From assembly GCA_016215155.1 (NCBI GenBank), contig JACRLQ010000034.1, forward strand, positions 1-41,255: 41,255 nucleotides of DNA. Reading direction: 5' to 3'. This stretch comes from Nitrospirota bacterium (GTDB taxonomy: Bacteria; Nitrospirota; Thermodesulfovibrionia; Thermodesulfovibrionales; UBA6898). Shown one piece after another: positions 27,208 to 37,157 of the stretch; position 1 is the stretch's first letter; each line of letters begins with the position of its first letter. The notes under the pieces were generated by a model. That model searched no databases, had not been told where the DNA came from, and was given only the letters and a program-made list of their open reading frames with translations. Made by a program: the position numbers and the translations under genes.

Positions 27208-28077
27208 TCAGCCCTGGTCCGGAGGCGCGTTCATGATTTCATGAACATTTTTCAGGATCTCCCTGATCGGGGACGGTTTTGTTAAAAATCTCAGATTGTT
27301 CTTTCTGAAGAATTCAACATGTTCGGGGTTAGCCATGCCGCTGAAAAATATGATCCTCCTGCCTATATCGGGGTCATGTTCAGCGGCCTTTTTGTAAAAC
27401 TCCATGCCGTCCATTACCGGCATTTTAAGGTCGGTGAGGATTACATCGAAATAGTTTTCCGTCACCTTCCGGAGACCCTCCCTGCCGTTTAAGGCCGTCT
27501 CGACAGTCCCTTCATCATTGAGGAGATTTTTCAAAAAACCCAAAATAGACGGTTCGTCGTCTATGACGAGTATTTTTTCATTCCACTGGGGCATTAGTCT
27601 TTTTATGGACGAAATATACTTCTCGCCTTCGGGAAGAGACCTGAAAAAGGCCTCTATCTCGAGGAGATGGTGGTAGATCCTTGACGGAACAGGCATGAAT
27701 TGACGTTCTTTTTTCAACAGGTCCATTACATGGATGAAGATATAATTCCATTCAGAAAACTCGGCAGCGGCGAGGCAATCAAGCAGGTCCTGTCTGTTGA
27801 GTGCGCCTTTGTTCAGAAGTTCGACGCACCGCGCGAGCGGGGCCTCGATGCTATTTTTTGTCGCGGCATCAAGGATGATCGAGGATTCGGCAATCGCGTT
27901 GCGGCTTGCGAACTCCGCGGCGCTTTCGATTACTTTCAGATGCCAGGCCTCCTCGTCCGAAAGGTGCCGGAGGAATTTTGATACCGGCTCGTCCTCTCTG
28001 AAAAATACCGACGCCTCCCTGTAAAAAGCACTGGAAAGTCTTTCGATATGGGCCAGCCATTCGATAGTCTCTAACAT
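27208..28077 (-). CDS. Response regulator with N-terminal ferritin-like domain
   Basis: Residues 1-160 are all-helical with a ferritin/rubrerythrin-like metal pattern: E12 and E21 in helix 1 (HIERLSSAFYREA), EExxH at 42-46 (DEEAWHLKV), E106/E109 in helix 3 (AAEFSEWNYIF) and H136/H137 with E140 in helix 4 (YHHLLEIEAFF). Residues 168-285 are a receiver domain with D173/D174, phospho-acceptor D216 (LTDLKMP), S246 and K267 (TKPS). No DNA-binding or enzymatic output follows. The helix 4 order (H then E) differs from the usual ExxH, so metal binding is unproven. The gene follows a heme-motif histidine kinase by 52 nt, its probable partner. Confidence 0.82.
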   Translation of the reverse strand: MLETIEWLAHIERLSSAFYREASVFFREDEPVSKFLRHLSDEEAWHLKVIESAAEFASRNAIAESSIILDAATKNSIEAPLARCVELLNKGALNRQDLLDCLAAAEFSEWNYIFIHVMDLLKKERQFMPVPSRIYHHLLEIEAFFRSLPEGEKYISSIKRLMPQWNEKILVIDDEPSILGFLKNLLNDEGTVETALNGREGLRKVTENYFDVILTDLKMPVMDGMEFYKKAAEHDPDIGRRIIFFSGMANPEHVEFFRKNNLRFLTKPSPIREILKNVHEIMNAPPDQG

Positions 28078-28086
28078 GTAGGTCCT

Positions 28087-28116
28087 CCTCTTTTATTATT
28101 ATCATAATAAAAGAGG
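28087..28116 (-). promoter_or_regulatory. Hairpin over the ribosome binding site of the ferritin-like regulator
   Basis: Perfect 13-bp arms (28116-28104 and 28099-28087) enclose a 4-nt loop. In the minus-strand mRNA the 3' arm ends in GAGG, which is the first half of the GAGGAGG Shine-Dalgarno (28090-28084) of the gene starting at 28077. Folding would hide part of the ribosome binding site. The loop region also contains the palindrome ATTAT-N-ATAAT at 28098-28108, so a DNA operator is an alternative reading. Confidence 0.65.
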
Positions 28117-28129
28117 ATTGTCTATCTGA

Positions 28130-30127
28130 TTAGCGGGTGTCCTGACCTGTAATGCCGTCAGCCGGGTACAGGGGAAGCAGTATCGTGAAGGTCGTGCCTT
28201 TTCCAAGCTCGCTCTTTACGTCTATCCTGCCTTTATGACTCTGAATGATCTTATAGGTTATCGAAAGCCCCAGTCCGGTGCCTTTTTCCTGTTTGGTCGT
28301 AAAGAAGGGCTCGAAGATCTTGGGAAGAACATCGGGGGGGATGCCGTGACCGGAGTCCGATATCGAGATAAAAACAAAGGTGTCCTGCACGCCGGAGCTG
28401 ATATGCACTTCCCTCCTGTCGCCGGCGATCGAATGGACGGCGTTGTTAAGTATATTCAGAAATACCTGCTTTAGCTGATTGGGGTCTCCCATGATTATGG
28501 GCATAGGGTCATAACGCTCCGTTATCTTTATTCTGGCGTCCCTCAGCTGGACGCTGATAAGAGACACTGTTTCTTTCAAAAGTCCGCGGATATTGACTTC
28601 CCTGATCTCCAGAGGTCTCTTCCTGGCAAACTCAAGGAGCTGCTGGACGATGTTCCGCGCCCGCAGGGACTCGGTGCTGATGATGTCTACATCCTTCATT
28701 ATGAGTTCAATGTCAGTTTCTTCTTTTATGAGTTCCGCATATCCCATAATGCTGGTCAGCGGGTTATTTATCTCGTGCGCGACATTCGAGGCGAGTTCAC
28801 CGATTGCGGCGAGCTTGGCCGCCTGCACGAGCTGCTCCTGTGTTTCCTTGAGCTCGTGCATCTGGGCCTTGAGGTTCTCGTACAACTTGGCATTATCTAT
28901 GGCCACGGATATATTGTTCGAGATGATGCCGATCAGTCTTACAGACTCCTCCGAGAATTCTCCGTCTTTTTTGTTGGCGAGCCGGATCAGTCCGATAAGT
29001 TCACCCTGGAGTCTGATCCACCCGATCAGCATATTCCGCGCATTCTCATCGGAAGGTCCTATAAGGCCGCGGGGCAGTTTCGCGGATTTAACGTCACTTA
29101 TTACGACCGGCCGCCTGTTGTTGTCATAGTAAAGGTCGAGCAGGTCCTCCTTCTTTACCCTTATCGAGGCCGCCTCCTGTTCACTGAGGCCATGGGCAGG
29201 ATGTTTGTGCGCTATGAAATTGCGGTCTTCGTCCTGAAGCATAAGGCCGCACTGTTCAACCCCTATGAGGTCGGCCACGCTGCTTGAGACCTCCCTGAAT
29301 ATCTCCGTGATGCTGGAGACGGAGTGAAAGGGCAGGGTGACTTTATAGAGTCCGGCGAGACGGTTCATATGCTGGATGGTCTTTTCGTTGCCGTCCTGCA
29401 GGGAACGGCTCATCTCATTAATGGACAAAGCGAGTTCTCCAAACTCGGTGCTGTCTTTATAGCCGGTGGTGTACCCGAGGTTGCCTGTGGTGATGTTTCG
29501 GGAGACGTCCATAAGCTCCCTGATAGGGCTGAGGATGTTCCTTATGAGCGTGACCGCTATCCAGAGGGCGATAATAAATGCCACCGCCAGAGTTATCGAC
29601 AAAATAATCTGTGCGTGCCTGACCCCGTCGAGGGCCTTGCCTGTCCTCTCCTGCAGCCTCTTGTTCGCGATAAAGGCCATTTCAGTAGTGATGTTGAGGA
29701 GTTCCGAACCCGCCTCATAGGATTCCACTTTGAGATTTCTTATCCTGTCCGTGTCCGCCGCGGCCGTAATATAATGGCTGAGCGAGTTTTCAAATTTTTC
29801 TACATTCGTCTTGATCTGCGCAAGTTTCCGGGTGATGAGCGGCGAGTGATGACAGTTTGTGCAGTTGTTGATCGCCTTGTCGAGGTCCGTCATATTGGAT
29901 ATTATCTTGTCCAGTTTGCTTCCAAGTTCCGTATGGACGGTCAGAAGGTCCTGCTCGACGTTTTGTATCTTTATGATCAGGTCCTGCCTCAGGATCTCGA
30001 CACCGTGGAGTGTGATCAGTTTTTTGAGCTCGGACGTGGTAAACGTGATATACAGCATGGATATGGCCGCGCCGAGCGTGAACACGAAGAACAAAAGTGA
30101 CAAAAAACCTATAATTCGCCGTTTCAT
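28130..30127 (-). CDS. Membrane histidine kinase with periplasmic CxxCH motif, HAMP and GAF
   Basis: The 665-residue kinase has a membrane helix at about 5-30, a helical periplasmic region with CTNCH (89-93), a second membrane helix at about 173-195, HAMP at about 196-248 and a GAF domain at about 262-415. The kinase core follows: phospho-acceptor H451 (NVAHEINNPLTSIMGY), an N-box around NILNNAVHSIAGD, DSGHGIPP, FEPFFTTK and GTGLGLSITYKII. The CxxCH motif predicts covalent c-type heme in the periplasm, hence sensing of redox state, O2 or NO. The downstream ferritin-like response regulator is the likely phosphate acceptor. Confidence 0.93.
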   Translation of the reverse strand: MKRRIIGFLSLLFFVFTLGAAISMLYITFTTSELKKLITLHGVEILRQDLIIKIQNVEQDLLTVHTELGSKLDKIISNMTDLDKAINNCTNCHHSPLITRKLAQIKTNVEKFENSLSHYITAAADTDRIRNLKVESYEAGSELLNITTEMAFIANKRLQERTGKALDGVRHAQIILSITLAVAFIIALWIAVTLIRNILSPIRELMDVSRNITTGNLGYTTGYKDSTEFGELALSINEMSRSLQDGNEKTIQHMNRLAGLYKVTLPFHSVSSITEIFREVSSSVADLIGVEQCGLMLQDEDRNFIAHKHPAHGLSEQEAASIRVKKEDLLDLYYDNNRRPVVISDVKSAKLPRGLIGPSDENARNMLIGWIRLQGELIGLIRLANKKDGEFSEESVRLIGIISNNISVAIDNAKLYENLKAQMHELKETQEQLVQAAKLAAIGELASNVAHEINNPLTSIMGYAELIKEETDIELIMKDVDIISTESLRARNIVQQLLEFARKRPLEIREVNIRGLLKETVSLISVQLRDARIKITERYDPMPIIMGDPNQLKQVFLNILNNAVHSIAGDRREVHISSGVQDTFVFISISDSGHGIPPDVLPKIFEPFFTTKQEKGTGLGLSITYKIIQSHKGRIDVKSELGKGTTFTILLPLYPADGITGQDTR

Positions 30128-33211: not shown

Positions 33212-33310
33212 TGAGTTCCTCCGGGGTGTTTCGGCATATTTTTATCATATCACATGTACGCATCCCGGCTGCCGGGTTATGTGAAAGGACCTCAAAATTT
33301 GTATTTTTTC

Positions 33311-33344
33311 CGTCATGCCCGAGATCCTTAGTCGGGCATCCACT
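33311..33344 (+). repeat. Palindromic repeat, left copy
   Basis: The core ATGCCCGA-N9-TCGGGCAT is a hairpin with 8-bp arms. An inverted copy with about 31 of 34 matching bases lies at 34094-34127. The two bracket the AT-rich patch with the small membrane protein and the transposase remnant. Confidence 0.75.
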
Positions 33345-33390
33345 TGCTTTAGCTAATCTCCTTCCTGATAATAGAGGGAGAATCGAGAAT

Positions 33391-33702
33391 ATGAGTAATA
33401 GAAAGTATGCGAAGTATATAACTGGCTACACAATATTAACGGTCTATATTGCAATATTTCTGTCTGCACTAATGTTTTATTTCTTAAACGTTCAGCGCAC
33501 TCCTTTTGCTGGTATCTATATTTTTATCGTTACATTGCCTTGGAGTTTGTCACTCATTATAATTCAATTTATAATTACTATACTGTTTCCAAATCATTTT
33601 AGTTCAATGATGGGGCTATTATTAATTTTATTCGGAGTTATTAACGCTTATTTTGTATTTCGCTTTGGTTGTAAAATCAGTGACGGAAATGATCAGCGGT
33701 AA
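33391..33702 (+). CDS. Small AT-rich membrane protein, unknown
   Basis: The 103-residue protein starting MSNRKYAKYITGYTILTVYI has three or so hydrophobic segments: about 8-31, 40-62 and 70-92. GAGGGAG lies about 10 nt before the ATG. Base composition is much richer in A/T than the genes on both sides, a sign of acquisition by transfer. I do not recognise a family. It lies inside the pair of inverted repeats at 33311 and 34094. Confidence 0.6.
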   Translation: MSNRKYAKYITGYTILTVYIAIFLSALMFYFLNVQRTPFAGIYIFIVTLPWSLSLIIIQFIITILFPNHFSSMMGLLLILFGVINAYFVFRFGCKISDGNDQR

Positions 33703-33784
33703 CAGACATAGAGGGCAGGACCATAAGTTACCGGAGGCAAAACAAATGGGACAGACTGGTTTAGTGAGTGAAAGTGAAAAAGAG

Positions 33785-33883
33785 ATGCCGAGTATAGCAA
33801 GAGGAATAGGAGAAGGGATTGTATACCACGTTATTGATCGTGGAAATGGGAGACAGGAAGTTTTCCATAAAGAGAAAGATTAT
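33785..33883 (+). pseudogene. REP-associated tyrosine transposase (RAYT) fragment
   Basis: The codons from MPSIARGIGEGIVYHVIDRG to about FHKEKDY match the N-terminus of Y1/IS200-like RAYT transposases, which read A/G-xVYHVxxRGNxRQxxF. After residue 33 the similarity stops, and the catalytic HUH and tyrosine regions are missing, so this is a remnant. The open frame runs on to 33961 only by chance. The REP-like palindromes just downstream are what such transposases act on. Confidence 0.7.
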
Positions 33884-33922
33884 ATGAAAACGAGAAATAA
33901 ACAGCATTATTCGGAAATAACC

Positions 33923-34030
33923 GTAGGGGCGACCCGGTGGGTCGCCCATGAAACAGAATAATGAAAATTGAACGAATGACAAAAACGAACGGCGACGGCA
34001 ACCCCGGGCGACCCACCGGGTAGCCCCTAC
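33923..34030. repeat. Inverted pair of REP-like palindromes
   Basis: The 25-nt unit at 33923-33947 (GTAGGGGCGACCC then GGTGGGTCGCCC) recurs in inverse orientation at 34006-34030 with one mismatch. Each unit is itself a hairpin with 9-bp arms. Together they could form a cruciform of about 108 nt. A related unit is at 37885-37911. This matches the layout of REP/BIME elements next to RAYT genes. Confidence 0.8.
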
Positions 34031-34093
34031 AAAAGGCGAATCCACTGTAAAAAAAGACTGGCTGCTTCAGGCGGGAAGCTGCTGGAATAAAGA

Positions 34094-34127
34094 GGTGGAT
34101 GCCCGACTGAGGCTCTCGGGCATGACG
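34094..34127 (-). repeat. Palindromic repeat, right copy
   Basis: This is the inverse of the element at 33311-33344, with the arms ATGCCCGA/TCGGGCAT conserved and three differences, two of them in the loop. No gene is seen from 34031 to 34219 apart from this repeat and the promoter at 34206-34214. Confidence 0.75.
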
Positions 34128-34205
34128 GGAAAGTATCAACTGAAGTTGAAGTGATAAACGAATAATCTTTTCTTGCAGGCAGGTTATATGATATGGTCAT
34201 GAGGC

Positions 34206-34214
34206 TGTTATAAT
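34206..34214 (+). promoter_or_regulatory. Extended -10 promoter next to a start codon
   Basis: TGTTATAAT is a perfect extended -10 (TGn plus TATAAT at 34209-34214). Only 5 nt separate it from the ATG at 34220, so transcription should start at or next to the ATG. No -35 consensus is needed for this class and none is obvious. Confidence 0.55.
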
Positions 34215-34219
34215 ATCAT

Positions 34220-35830
34220 ATGGATCAGAACCTGACCATCTTCAACCTGATAAGCGAACTGAGCGGGATCATAAACTCAAGCCTGAGTATCGGCACCGTA
34301 TTCAGGATCATGGTCTCGGAGATAAGGAAACTGGTCGGCTATGACCGCGCGAGCCTTCTGTTGTTCAATGAAGCGGACAATAACATGCTGATCTTCGCCC
34401 TCGATACCGAGATGAACACGGTCATGAAAAAAGGTGTGAAGGCCCCGGTAGAAGGCACCAGCGCCGGATGGGTCATAATGAACAACGAGCCCTGGATAAA
34501 CTATGACCTGAGGGACCTCAGATTCCCCCTTGATAAAAAACTCTTCGACGAGGGCCTCAGGTCCACGATAAGCGTCCCCCTTTATCATGACAAGGTCCTG
34601 GGTGTATTCAACCTCGACAGTACCCGGCCTTTCAGATATTCCGAAGAAGACCTCCGGATACTGCTGCCTGCCGCGAAGCATATTTCGATAGCCCTCGAAA
34701 ATGCGCTCCTTTTCCAGGAGATCTCGAGGGAGAAGAAAGAGTGGGAGAGGACCTTTGATTCCATTACGGACATGGTATGGATCGAAGATATCAGGCAGCG
34801 GGTGATCCGCGCCAATCAAACGCTTTTGAAAAAGGCCGGTCTGTCTTCGGTCGAGATTTCCGGCAAACGGTGCTGGGAGATTTTCTACAGGATAGGCATC
34901 AATACTCAGGAATGCGCCTGCTCCGAGACTGTCGCTAGCAGGAGGCAGTCGTTCATGGAATTAAAAGGCATGATGGGACAGATCTGCCATTTCTGGGCTT
35001 ATCCGCTGACCGATGAAGAGGGGCGCCTGTATGCCGTAGTCCATTATCTCAAGGATGTCTCTGACCAAAAGAGGCTCGAACAGCAGCTGATAAGGTCCGA
35101 CAGGCTCGCCTCGCTCGGCACCCTGGTCGCCGGTATTGCCCATGAAATCAATAATCCTCTTGGCATAATTGCCGGGTATTCGGAGGCCCTTCTGGACAGG
35201 GCTAAAGACAAGAAGCTGCTTGGGACGGCGGAGTTCGAGGATTTTCCGGAATACCTCGAAACGATCCATAACGAGATCTTCAGATGTAAGGACATCTTAA
35301 ACAGTCTCCTTGATTTTGCGAGGCCCTCCGGAGGCATATACAGGGAGATCGATATCAATGAACTGATAAAGGAGGTCATCCTCCTTGTAAATCACAGGGC
35401 CAAACGTCTGGACCATAATATTCAACTGAGCCTCAACAGGGACCTGCCCAGGATCTACGCCGATCCCGGGAGCCTCAGGCAGGTCTTCATGAATATCATC
35501 ATGAACTCTATGTACTTTACCCCCGGGAAGGGCAGGATCGTGATAAGGAGCAGCAGGAGCAACGGGATACAGGGGAAGAAATATCTGGAGAATGTTTCGA
35601 GCATCACCGTTTCCGTAGCGGATTCGGGGGCCGGAATCCCCGAAGAAAACATCGATAAGATATTCGACCCTTTTTTTACGACCAAGCCTGTCGGCGAGGG
35701 GACCGGGCTCGGACTTTCGATCTGCCACAAGATAGTCGAGGACCATAACGGCAGCATAGATGTAATAAGCGAGGAGGGCAAGGGCACGACCTTCAGCATA
35801 AGGCTCCCGGCGCGGTCCGGCCATGATTAG
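34220..35830 (+). CDS. Soluble histidine kinase with GAF and PAS domains
   Basis: The 536-residue kinase has no membrane helix, so it senses in the cytoplasm. Residues about 10-165 are GAF (ELSGIINSSLSIGTVFRIM, ISVPLYHDKVLGVFNLD) and about 175-290 PAS, with Cys-rich RIGINTQECACSET. Phospho-acceptor H308 sits in GIAHEINNPLGIIAGYSEAL; the ATPase has NIIMNSMYFT, DSGAGIPEENI, FDPFFTTK and GEGTGLGLSICHKI. The 3' end overlaps the sigma54-type response regulator by 8 nt, so these are partners. No Shine-Dalgarno precedes the ATG. Confidence 0.95.
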   Translation: MDQNLTIFNLISELSGIINSSLSIGTVFRIMVSEIRKLVGYDRASLLLFNEADNNMLIFALDTEMNTVMKKGVKAPVEGTSAGWVIMNNEPWINYDLRDLRFPLDKKLFDEGLRSTISVPLYHDKVLGVFNLDSTRPFRYSEEDLRILLPAAKHISIALENALLFQEISREKKEWERTFDSITDMVWIEDIRQRVIRANQTLLKKAGLSSVEISGKRCWEIFYRIGINTQECACSETVASRRQSFMELKGMMGQICHFWAYPLTDEEGRLYAVVHYLKDVSDQKRLEQQLIRSDRLASLGTLVAGIAHEINNPLGIIAGYSEALLDRAKDKKLLGTAEFEDFPEYLETIHNEIFRCKDILNSLLDFARPSGGIYREIDINELIKEVILLVNHRAKRLDHNIQLSLNRDLPRIYADPGSLRQVFMNIIMNSMYFTPGKGRIVIRSSRSNGIQGKKYLENVSSITVSVADSGAGIPEENIDKIFDPFFTTKPVGEGTGLGLSICHKIVEDHNGSIDVISEEGKGTTFSIRLPARSGHD

Positions 35831-37157
35831 AATCCTGGTGGTTGACGACGAAGAGCCGATAAGAAGGCTCTTAAAAAAAGAGCTGACCCGAAAGGGTTTT
35901 TCCGTCGAGGCCGCCTCTGACGGCGAAGGGGCCTTAGGGCTTATCAAAGAAAGCATCTTCGACGTCATCCTCCTTGATATCGTTATGCCGGGGATAAACG
36001 GTATCGGGCTTATGAAGAAACTCCATTATGACCCGTCTTCCCCGGTAATAATCGTGCTTACCGGAAAGGCGACGGTCGAGACGGCCGTTGAAGCGATGAA
36101 GCATGGGGCTTATGATTACCTCACAAAGCCGTACAAGCTGGACGAACTGGTCATCGTCATAAACCGCGCGTATGAGTATGGAAAATTGAGCATGAAAACC
36201 CAGCTCCTTCAGCAGGAACTCCTGAGGGTAGAGTCAACGTCCGAATTTATATCGAACAGTCCGCAGATGAAGTCCATTATGGGGCTTATAAGAAAAATCG
36301 CCCCGACAGATTCCGCGGTCCTTATCCAGGGCGAAAGCGGCACCGGCAAAGAGCTGGTGGCCAATACTATATGGCATAACAGCGGGAGGAACAGGACCCC
36401 TTTGATAGCCCTTAACTGTGCGACGCTCTCCGAGAATCTAATCGAATCCGAGATCTTCGGCCACGAGAAGGGGTCTTTTACGAGCGCGTACCAGACCAAA
36501 CACGGGATCGTGGAGGTCGCGGACAAGGGCACTCTGTTTTTGGATGAAATAGGGGAGATGCCGCTGGGGCTGCAGGCGAAGCTTCTGAGGTTCCTCGATT
36601 CAGGTGAATTCAGGAGACTCGGGAGTAACAGGACCCTTAACGTTGATGTGAGGGTCCTCGCCGCAACGAACAAAAACCTGCTGGAGAGAGTGAAGGCCGG
36701 GGCATTCAGGGAGGACCTCTATTACAGGCTGAATGTCATAAATATTACTATTCCGCCACTGAGGGAGAGGAGGGAAGACATCTCCGGACTCACCTCATAT
36801 TTTATGGATAAATACAGCCGGAAACTCTCCAAGTCTGTCGCCGGAGTGAGTCCTGACGCCATTGAGGCCCTTGGTCGATATGATTGGCCGGGCAATGTAA
36901 GAGAACTCGAAAATGTGATCGAACGGGCCGTCATACTCTGCGACGCCGGAAGCATCTCGGTAGAAGACCTGTCGATTCCGGCGCTTTCTTTCTCCCCGGA
37001 TGTCACGGGACGACAGCCGTCTCTTGAGGACATGGAAAGGGATTATATTCTAAAGGTCCTTAATGGGGCGCGGGGCAACCAGTCGAAGGCTAGCCAGATA
37101 CTGGGCATTGACAGAAAGACGCTTTATCACAAATTGAAGAAATACGGGATAAACTAG
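35823..37157 (+). CDS. NtrC-family sigma54-dependent response regulator
   Basis: A receiver domain (D8/D9, phospho-acceptor D52 in LLDIVMPGING, lysine in TKPYKL) is followed by an AAA+ domain with Walker A GESGTGK (170-176), GTLFLDEIGEM (Walker B), RVLAATNKNL and FREDLYYRLNV. A Fis-type helix-turn-helix ends the protein (GNQSKASQILGIDRKTLYHK). The sigma54-contacting loop reads GSFTSA (217-222) instead of GAFTGA. The functional threonine remains, but the second glycine is serine. It is encoded with the GAF/PAS kinase and would activate sigma54 promoters in response to it; targets are not evident here. Confidence 0.95.
   Translation: MIRILVVDDEEPIRRLLKKELTRKGFSVEAASDGEGALGLIKESIFDVILLDIVMPGINGIGLMKKLHYDPSSPVIIVLTGKATVETAVEAMKHGAYDYLTKPYKLDELVIVINRAYEYGKLSMKTQLLQQELLRVESTSEFISNSPQMKSIMGLIRKIAPTDSAVLIQGESGTGKELVANTIWHNSGRNRTPLIALNCATLSENLIESEIFGHEKGSFTSAYQTKHGIVEVADKGTLFLDEIGEMPLGLQAKLLRFLDSGEFRRLGSNRTLNVDVRVLAATNKNLLERVKAGAFREDLYYRLNVINITIPPLRERREDISGLTSYFMDKYSRKLSKSVAGVSPDAIEALGRYDWPGNVRELENVIERAVILCDAGSISVEDLSIPALSFSPDVTGRQPSLEDMERDYILKVLNGARGNQSKASQILGIDRKTLYHKLKKYGIN

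Follow-up and report, generated by a model that had tools for sequence, protein, structure and literature searches.

A response regulator with a predicted ferritin-like, candidate metal-binding domain ahead of its receiver in a Nitrospirota bacterium

The kinase and regulator genes

The window, which is the whole 41,255-nt stretch of DNA analysed here, contains a sensor histidine kinase gene and, 52 bp downstream on the same strand, a response regulator gene. The features of this locus are as follows.

28130..30127, minus strand: sensor histidine kinase, 665 aa, with the order TM-periplasmic-TM-HAMP-GAF-HisKA-HATPase (ORF, Pfam)
29846..29863, minus strand: periplasmic CxxCHH of the kinase (C89-H94), predicted covalent heme c site
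28086..28117, minus strand: perfect AT-rich hairpin with 14-bp arms in the kinase-regulator gap, its 3' arm running into the Shine-Dalgarno sequence of the regulator
27208..28077, minus strand: response regulator gene, 289 aa, predicted ferritin-like domain plus receiver (ORF, Pfam, AF2 models, 44 aligned full-length fusions)
27583..28077, minus strand: predicted ferritin-like domain, residues 1-165 (AF2, structure comparison, profile against the PDB)
27211..27582, minus strand: receiver domain, residues 166-289 (Pfam Response_reg, E 5.8e-19)
27430-27432, minus strand: codon of the phosphoacceptor Asp216 in the receiver, which also has the conserved Lys267

The Response_reg match (PF00072) covers residues 169-278 of the regulator and lies above the Pfam cut-off. 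Asp216 and Lys267 are kept in 42/45 and 44/45 proteins, respectively, of our family alignment (44 full-length fusions plus the window regulator), and both are present in the window protein, whose receiver is, judged by its residues, intact. Pfam detected no further domain C-terminal to the receiver, in agreement with the initial annotation, which had assigned no known output domain to the regulator.

The kinase has hydrophobic segments at approximately residues 5-27 and 170-195, with a periplasmic stretch between them, and thus shows the arrangement of a c-type heme sensor kinase, in which two TM segments flank a conserved CxxCH in the periplasm. The protein contains a single CxxCHH, and this motif, noted as a periplasmic CxxCH in the initial annotation, was invariant in the window kinase and the 15 homologues aligned with it (16/16). 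Since the motif is invariant across the homologues, the kinase likely carries covalent heme at this site. In more distant genomes (L138-L140 and L142-L145), one or two genes for periplasmic binding protein-like proteins of approximately 300-345 aa mostly precede the CxxCHH kinase, which hints that the kinase has a ligand input of its own.

It had been proposed that the CxxCHH kinase evolved together with the metal-regulator as a dedicated two-checkpoint redox switch. The two window genes are indeed adjacent, on one strand and separated by only 52 bp, and the invariance of CxxCHH throughout the kinase family would also fit this proposal. However, the closest kinase homologues (67-75% identity) precede fabG or other genes and are not accompanied by such a regulator, and the kinase sensor family was found in 82 of the 176 genomes of the order, mostly without a ferritin-like regulator, versus 6 of 176 for the regulator. 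As the stretch immediately ahead of fabG is conserved, the regulator gene of the window can be placed between this stretch and the end of the kinase gene; in a related genome (G003), the kinase and fabG are about 220 bp apart. A conserved kinase partner was also sought beside the relatives of the regulator and was not found: nearly all of them lack an adjacent kinase, and at only one other locus (L051) does a same-strand kinase gene directly precede the regulator, encoding a kinase without CxxCH. As the nearest kin of the kinase lack the regulator and nearly all kin of the regulator lack an adjacent kinase, the pairing is local and holds for the window locus only, and a dedicated switch is improbable.

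The hairpin in the intergenic gap is the longest perfect inverted repeat of its kind within the window, with a predicted RNA fold of -22.8 kcal/mol (z -5.5). The genome contains this sequence at one site only, and it was absent upstream of all 43 other family members examined. Given its overlap with the Shine-Dalgarno sequence, the hairpin may limit translation of the regulator.

Elsewhere in the window, positions 35-507 hold at least eight copies of ATGTTCCCCGCATATGCGGGGATGAACCG, 61 nt apart and with differing spacers, which look like part of a CRISPR array. A pair of 38-nt inverted repeats (92% complementary, 751 nt apart) at 33306-34132 possibly marks the ends of a small mobile element, and at 34214-37157 another kinase-like gene precedes an open frame that overlaps it and is related to regulators with receivers in other genomes.

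Fold and predicted metal site of the N-terminal domain

When searched as a single sequence, residues 1-165 matched no Pfam or NCBIfam model (PF02915, Rubrerythrin, gave no hit), and a single-sequence search of the PDB gave nothing useful; family profiles alone gave matches. The family profile matched 2fzf (9.2e-7) and TM1526 (7.5e-5), then ferritins and symerythrin, and ferritin-like proteins of the PDB were matched again when the search was repeated with 45 sequences. PF02915 matched 18/45 members at E<=1 (best 4.1e-6), and two stand-alone relatives exceeded the Pfam cut-off of this model.

A structure search with the whole regulator returned receivers only, and the domain was therefore predicted and searched alone. 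Modelled from 45 sequences, it gave an AF2 pLDDT of 91.9 and a pTM of 0.87, with helices at residues 2-25, 30-59, 71-89, 95-106/110-120, 130-147 and 152-161 of the regulator. Foldseek E-values for the lone domain were weak (best 0.12). VIA-align placed TM1526 (1vjx) at the top (Z 13.4, rmsd 2.7, 140 residues aligned), followed by YciF, Dps, bacterioferritin and rubrerythrin (for 1b71, Z 10.9, rmsd 3.7, 130 residues aligned), although Z values of 10-13 are within chance reach of helical bundles. In total, 49 of the 50 VIA-align rows were of ferritin, Dps, YciF or rubrerythrin type, and the remaining row was a DUF305 entry. Because VIA-align re-examines the candidates of Foldseek and bundles can reach such scores, our assignment rests on the sequence profile and the structure together. 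On this basis, the N-terminal domain is predicted to belong to the ferritin-like superfamily, with its four-helix bundle of two helical hairpins, as the initial annotation had proposed for the region ahead of the receiver.

Two other assignments were rejected. DUF2383, which had been named as an example of a metal-free bundle that might match better, matched only 1/45 members (E 0.033) versus 18/45 for Rubrerythrin. A hemerythrin domain would require a His-rich set of seven diiron ligands, which is absent; the conserved His residues of the 45 members are H46 and H137 only.

The positions of the candidate metal site are listed below.

28042..28044, minus strand: Glu12, predicted metal ligand in helix A, in the register of rubrerythrin/SulE Glu20
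28021..28023, minus strand: Tyr19, predicted second-sphere Tyr at the position of SulE Tyr27
27940..27951, minus strand: Glu43-x-x-His46, predicted ligands in helix B at the position of SulE Glu53/His56
27751..27762, minus strand: Glu106-x-x-Glu109 in the motif E(F/Y)SEWN, predicted ligands in helix C with the spacing of SulE Glu92/Glu95
27667..27678, minus strand: helix D, Ile134 (where the bridging Glu is expected) and His137 (predicted ligand)

The predicted site rests on register and conservation. In the structural alignment with rubrerythrin 1b71, residue 1 of the model corresponds to residue 9 of the chain, so E12 falls on rubrerythrin Glu20 if helix A is ungapped; the bacterioferritin alignments (residue 1 of the model to residue 7 of the chain) likewise place E12 on Glu18, a ligand in E. 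coli bacterioferritin. E12, Y19, E106, E109 and H137 are invariant in the family alignment (45/45), and E43 and H46 are kept in 44/45. Nine positions are kept in at least 44/45 members (these seven, N111 and F114), and all six predicted ligand positions are among them (hypergeometric p = 4e-9). The ligand pattern of the ferritin superfamily (Glu in helix A, ExxH in helix B, Glu in helix C and His in helix D) is thus found in 44-45 of the 45 members. The conserved set in the alignment is accordingly E12, E43, H46, E106, E109 and H137, plus Y19. Of the diiron-like set listed in the initial annotation, E12, E43, H46, E106 and H137 stood, while E21, E42 and E140 are not conserved: K is the commonest residue at position 21, position 42 holds either D or E, and E140 is kept in only 16%. 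E109 had been missed.

The full rubrerythrin ligand set, including the helix-D Glu of ExxH, was not found in any of the 45 members. Position 134 is always hydrophobic (I in 29, M in 9, L in 4 and V in 3), and canonical rubrerythrin-like relatives from the same phylum retain the helix-D ExxH. Because the helix-D Glu is gone but four Glu and two His are retained, one carboxylate appears to have shifted from helix D to helix C. With a hydrophobic residue in place of the bridging Glu, the site might be mononuclear, use a different bridge or contain Mn or Zn.

The absence of one bridging carboxylate from every member, together with the equal conservation of two non-ligands, N111 and F114, could point to a metal-free bundle that only dimerises or docks partners, with the conserved Glu and His residues forming a structural polar core. 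This is distinctly unlikely, because the six other ligand positions are kept across phyla with the significance given above and because two stand-alone relatives pass the Rubrerythrin cut-off, one of which (L044) carries all the conserved site residues of the regulator family. In addition, the sole exception in the alignment, a degenerate copy on the longest branch of the family (L077), has lost both E43 and H46, as expected if the two residues form one site. We therefore consider it very probable that the ferritin-like domain binds metal, as judged from these patterns of conservation.

Distribution, other fusions and gene neighbourhoods

A search of the order identified six receiver-fused relatives in five genomes and one stand-alone relative. 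The survey for the same fusion that the initial annotation had called for, a scan of 84,980 genomes together with a search of the phylum, gave 46 fusions of ferritin-like domain and receiver besides that of the window. They come from Nitrospirota, Desulfobacterota, Spirochaetota, SAR324, Verrucomicrobiota, deltaproteobacteria labelled Myxococcota, and one genome labelled Pseudomonadota; no relatives of the regulator were found in the viral contigs searched. No fusion extends more than about 20 residues past the receiver, and additional output domains are accordingly absent from all of them. One locus (L049:5956-7915) contains a tandem pair of ferritin-like response regulators.

Related domains were also found in front of other partners. 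They are N-terminal to GGDEF in L110 (G076), L112 (G057), L149 (G393) and L157 (G077), and, judged by sequence, in L156 (G086); the GGDEF versions that were aligned (L110 and L112) have Asp in place of E12 and lack E109. In L150 (G003) and L151 (G004), a related domain precedes a J domain (PF00226, up to 1.5e-13), and the same order is seen by sequence in L152 (G013); all three genomes are relatives from the genus and family to which the window belongs. Four further proteins (L098-L101) combine a related domain with a C-terminal cold-shock-like stretch, for which the Pfam CSD match of L098 (E 0.01) is below the cut-off. Fusion to GGDEF, J and cold-shock-like parts suits a regulatory input module.

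MsrA(B) was the only recurring same-strand neighbour of the regulators beyond kinases and common transporters. In a Desulfosudis MAG (L061:4713-7669), MsrAB, the ferritin-like response regulator and a thiol peroxidase lie in this order on one strand, which is possibly an oxidative-stress operon. MsrAB is directly upstream of the degenerate regulator copy of L077, and MsrA is nearby on the other strand in L075. The Msr association concerns three of about 45 loci, and most members have unrelated neighbours; the Msr and thiol peroxidase genes are a hint at an oxidant-related function.

Proposed function and comparison with known systems

The Msr and thiol peroxidase context and the fusions of related domains lead us to favour a metal domain that responds to oxidant or iron and is coupled to the receiver. 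We propose, with a probability of roughly 0.55, that the regulator is a metal-dependent receiver protein in which such a domain is coupled to a receiver acting by protein contact. In the rubrerythrin-type bundle, four Glu and two His would form a probably dinuclear metal site, with the second Glu of helix C (E109) supplying the fourth carboxylate in place of the usual helix-D bridging Glu. Oxidation of the site, binding of peroxide or O2, or loss of metal would change the bundle, and this change would pass through the helical linker (residues 149-161) to the receiver. A histidine kinase would phosphorylate Asp216: in the window perhaps the CxxCHH kinase encoded just upstream, at other loci a distant one. 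As there is no DNA-binding or enzymatic domain, the receiver would signal through protein-protein contact. The analysis supplies the predicted fold, the fusion itself, the invariant residues, the intact receiver and the spread of the family, whereas metal binding, iron rather than another metal, the sensing of oxidant or iron, the direction of coupling and the kinase partner are the parts of this proposal that we infer.

The direction of coupling might also be reversed, with phosphorylation of the receiver switching a peroxidase- or ferroxidase-like activity, or the iron handling, of the bundle as the output. Response regulators usually require an output, and here the receiver is followed by none; rubrerythrins scavenge peroxide (PMC5114695), Tyr19 and Glu109, both invariant, correspond to residues of the sulerythrin active site, and MsrAB and thiol peroxidase adjoin the regulator in L061. 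However, the loss of the helix-D bridging Glu in 45/45 members and the lack of a rubredoxin-like electron donor disfavour an efficient rubrerythrin-type peroxidase, and related domains lie N-terminal to GGDEF, itself active, as expected of an input. We regard an output role as rather unlikely.

A broader reading extends the metal-dependent receiver protein to the receiver fusions of several phyla and to the related GGDEF, J and cold-shock-like fusions, a family previously undescribed. Here, ferritin-like metal sensors with a six-ligand centre and a fourth carboxylate from helix C would serve as an interchangeable N-terminal input through which the state of oxidant or iron would directly control a phosphorylation switch; this we put forward tentatively, at somewhat under even odds. 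A response regulator normally does no more than receive a phosphoryl signal passively. If our reading is true, a conserved metal site would let one read the chemistry of the cytoplasm directly in addition to its kinase input, and such regulators would occur, as a small and well-conserved family, in anaerobic lineages that are largely uncultured. Among non-heme diiron domains, hemerythrin is a known sensor, and the ferritin fold is known for storage and catalysis; the ferritin fold would then be a second scaffold used in signalling.

Among proteins of known structure, TM1526, a ferritin-like diiron-carboxylate protein, is both the best structural match to the domain and a profile match, although it is a stand-alone protein without a receiver. 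Rubrerythrin (1b71/1ryt) aligns over 130 residues with the domain model; the regulator differs in lacking a rubredoxin-like domain and in having a receiver fused C-terminally. In sulerythrin, the first sphere consists of E20, E53, H56, E92, E126 and H129; E95 lies nearby, and the modelled active site also includes Y27 and Y100 (PMC9589262). E20, Y27, E53, H56, E92, E95 and H129 of SulE all have counterparts in the regulator, with matching spacings (E12/Y19 +7, E43/H46 +3 and E106/E109 +3, then H137), whereas the position of Glu126 is occupied by I, M, L or V in 45/45 regulators and that of Tyr100 by Phe (F114). In its active-site residues and its lack of a DNA-binding or enzymatic output, the receiver resembles the stand-alone receivers of CheY, DivK and Spo0F type, from which the regulator differs by the 165-aa ferritin-like domain that precedes it.

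In Vc Bhr-DGC and Ferrovum Bhr-HD-GYP, a non-heme diiron domain N-terminal to the signalling domain reports redox state or O2 (PMC8846402), and the regulator likewise has a candidate metal bundle before its signalling domain. Their domain belongs to another family with other, His-rich ligands, whereas that of the regulator has two conserved His, and their output is c-di-GMP turnover, in place of which the regulator has a receiver. The main text of PMC8846402 does not contain the words 'ferritin' or 'rubrerythrin', and within the open-access literature we found no description of ferritin- or rubrerythrin-type response regulators or GGDEF fusions, consistent with the earlier impression that the type had not been described. 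The hemerythrin-DGC and hemerythrin-HD-GYP proteins are therefore the nearest precedents in kind, and the ferritin-like scaffold is, as far as found, new for signalling.
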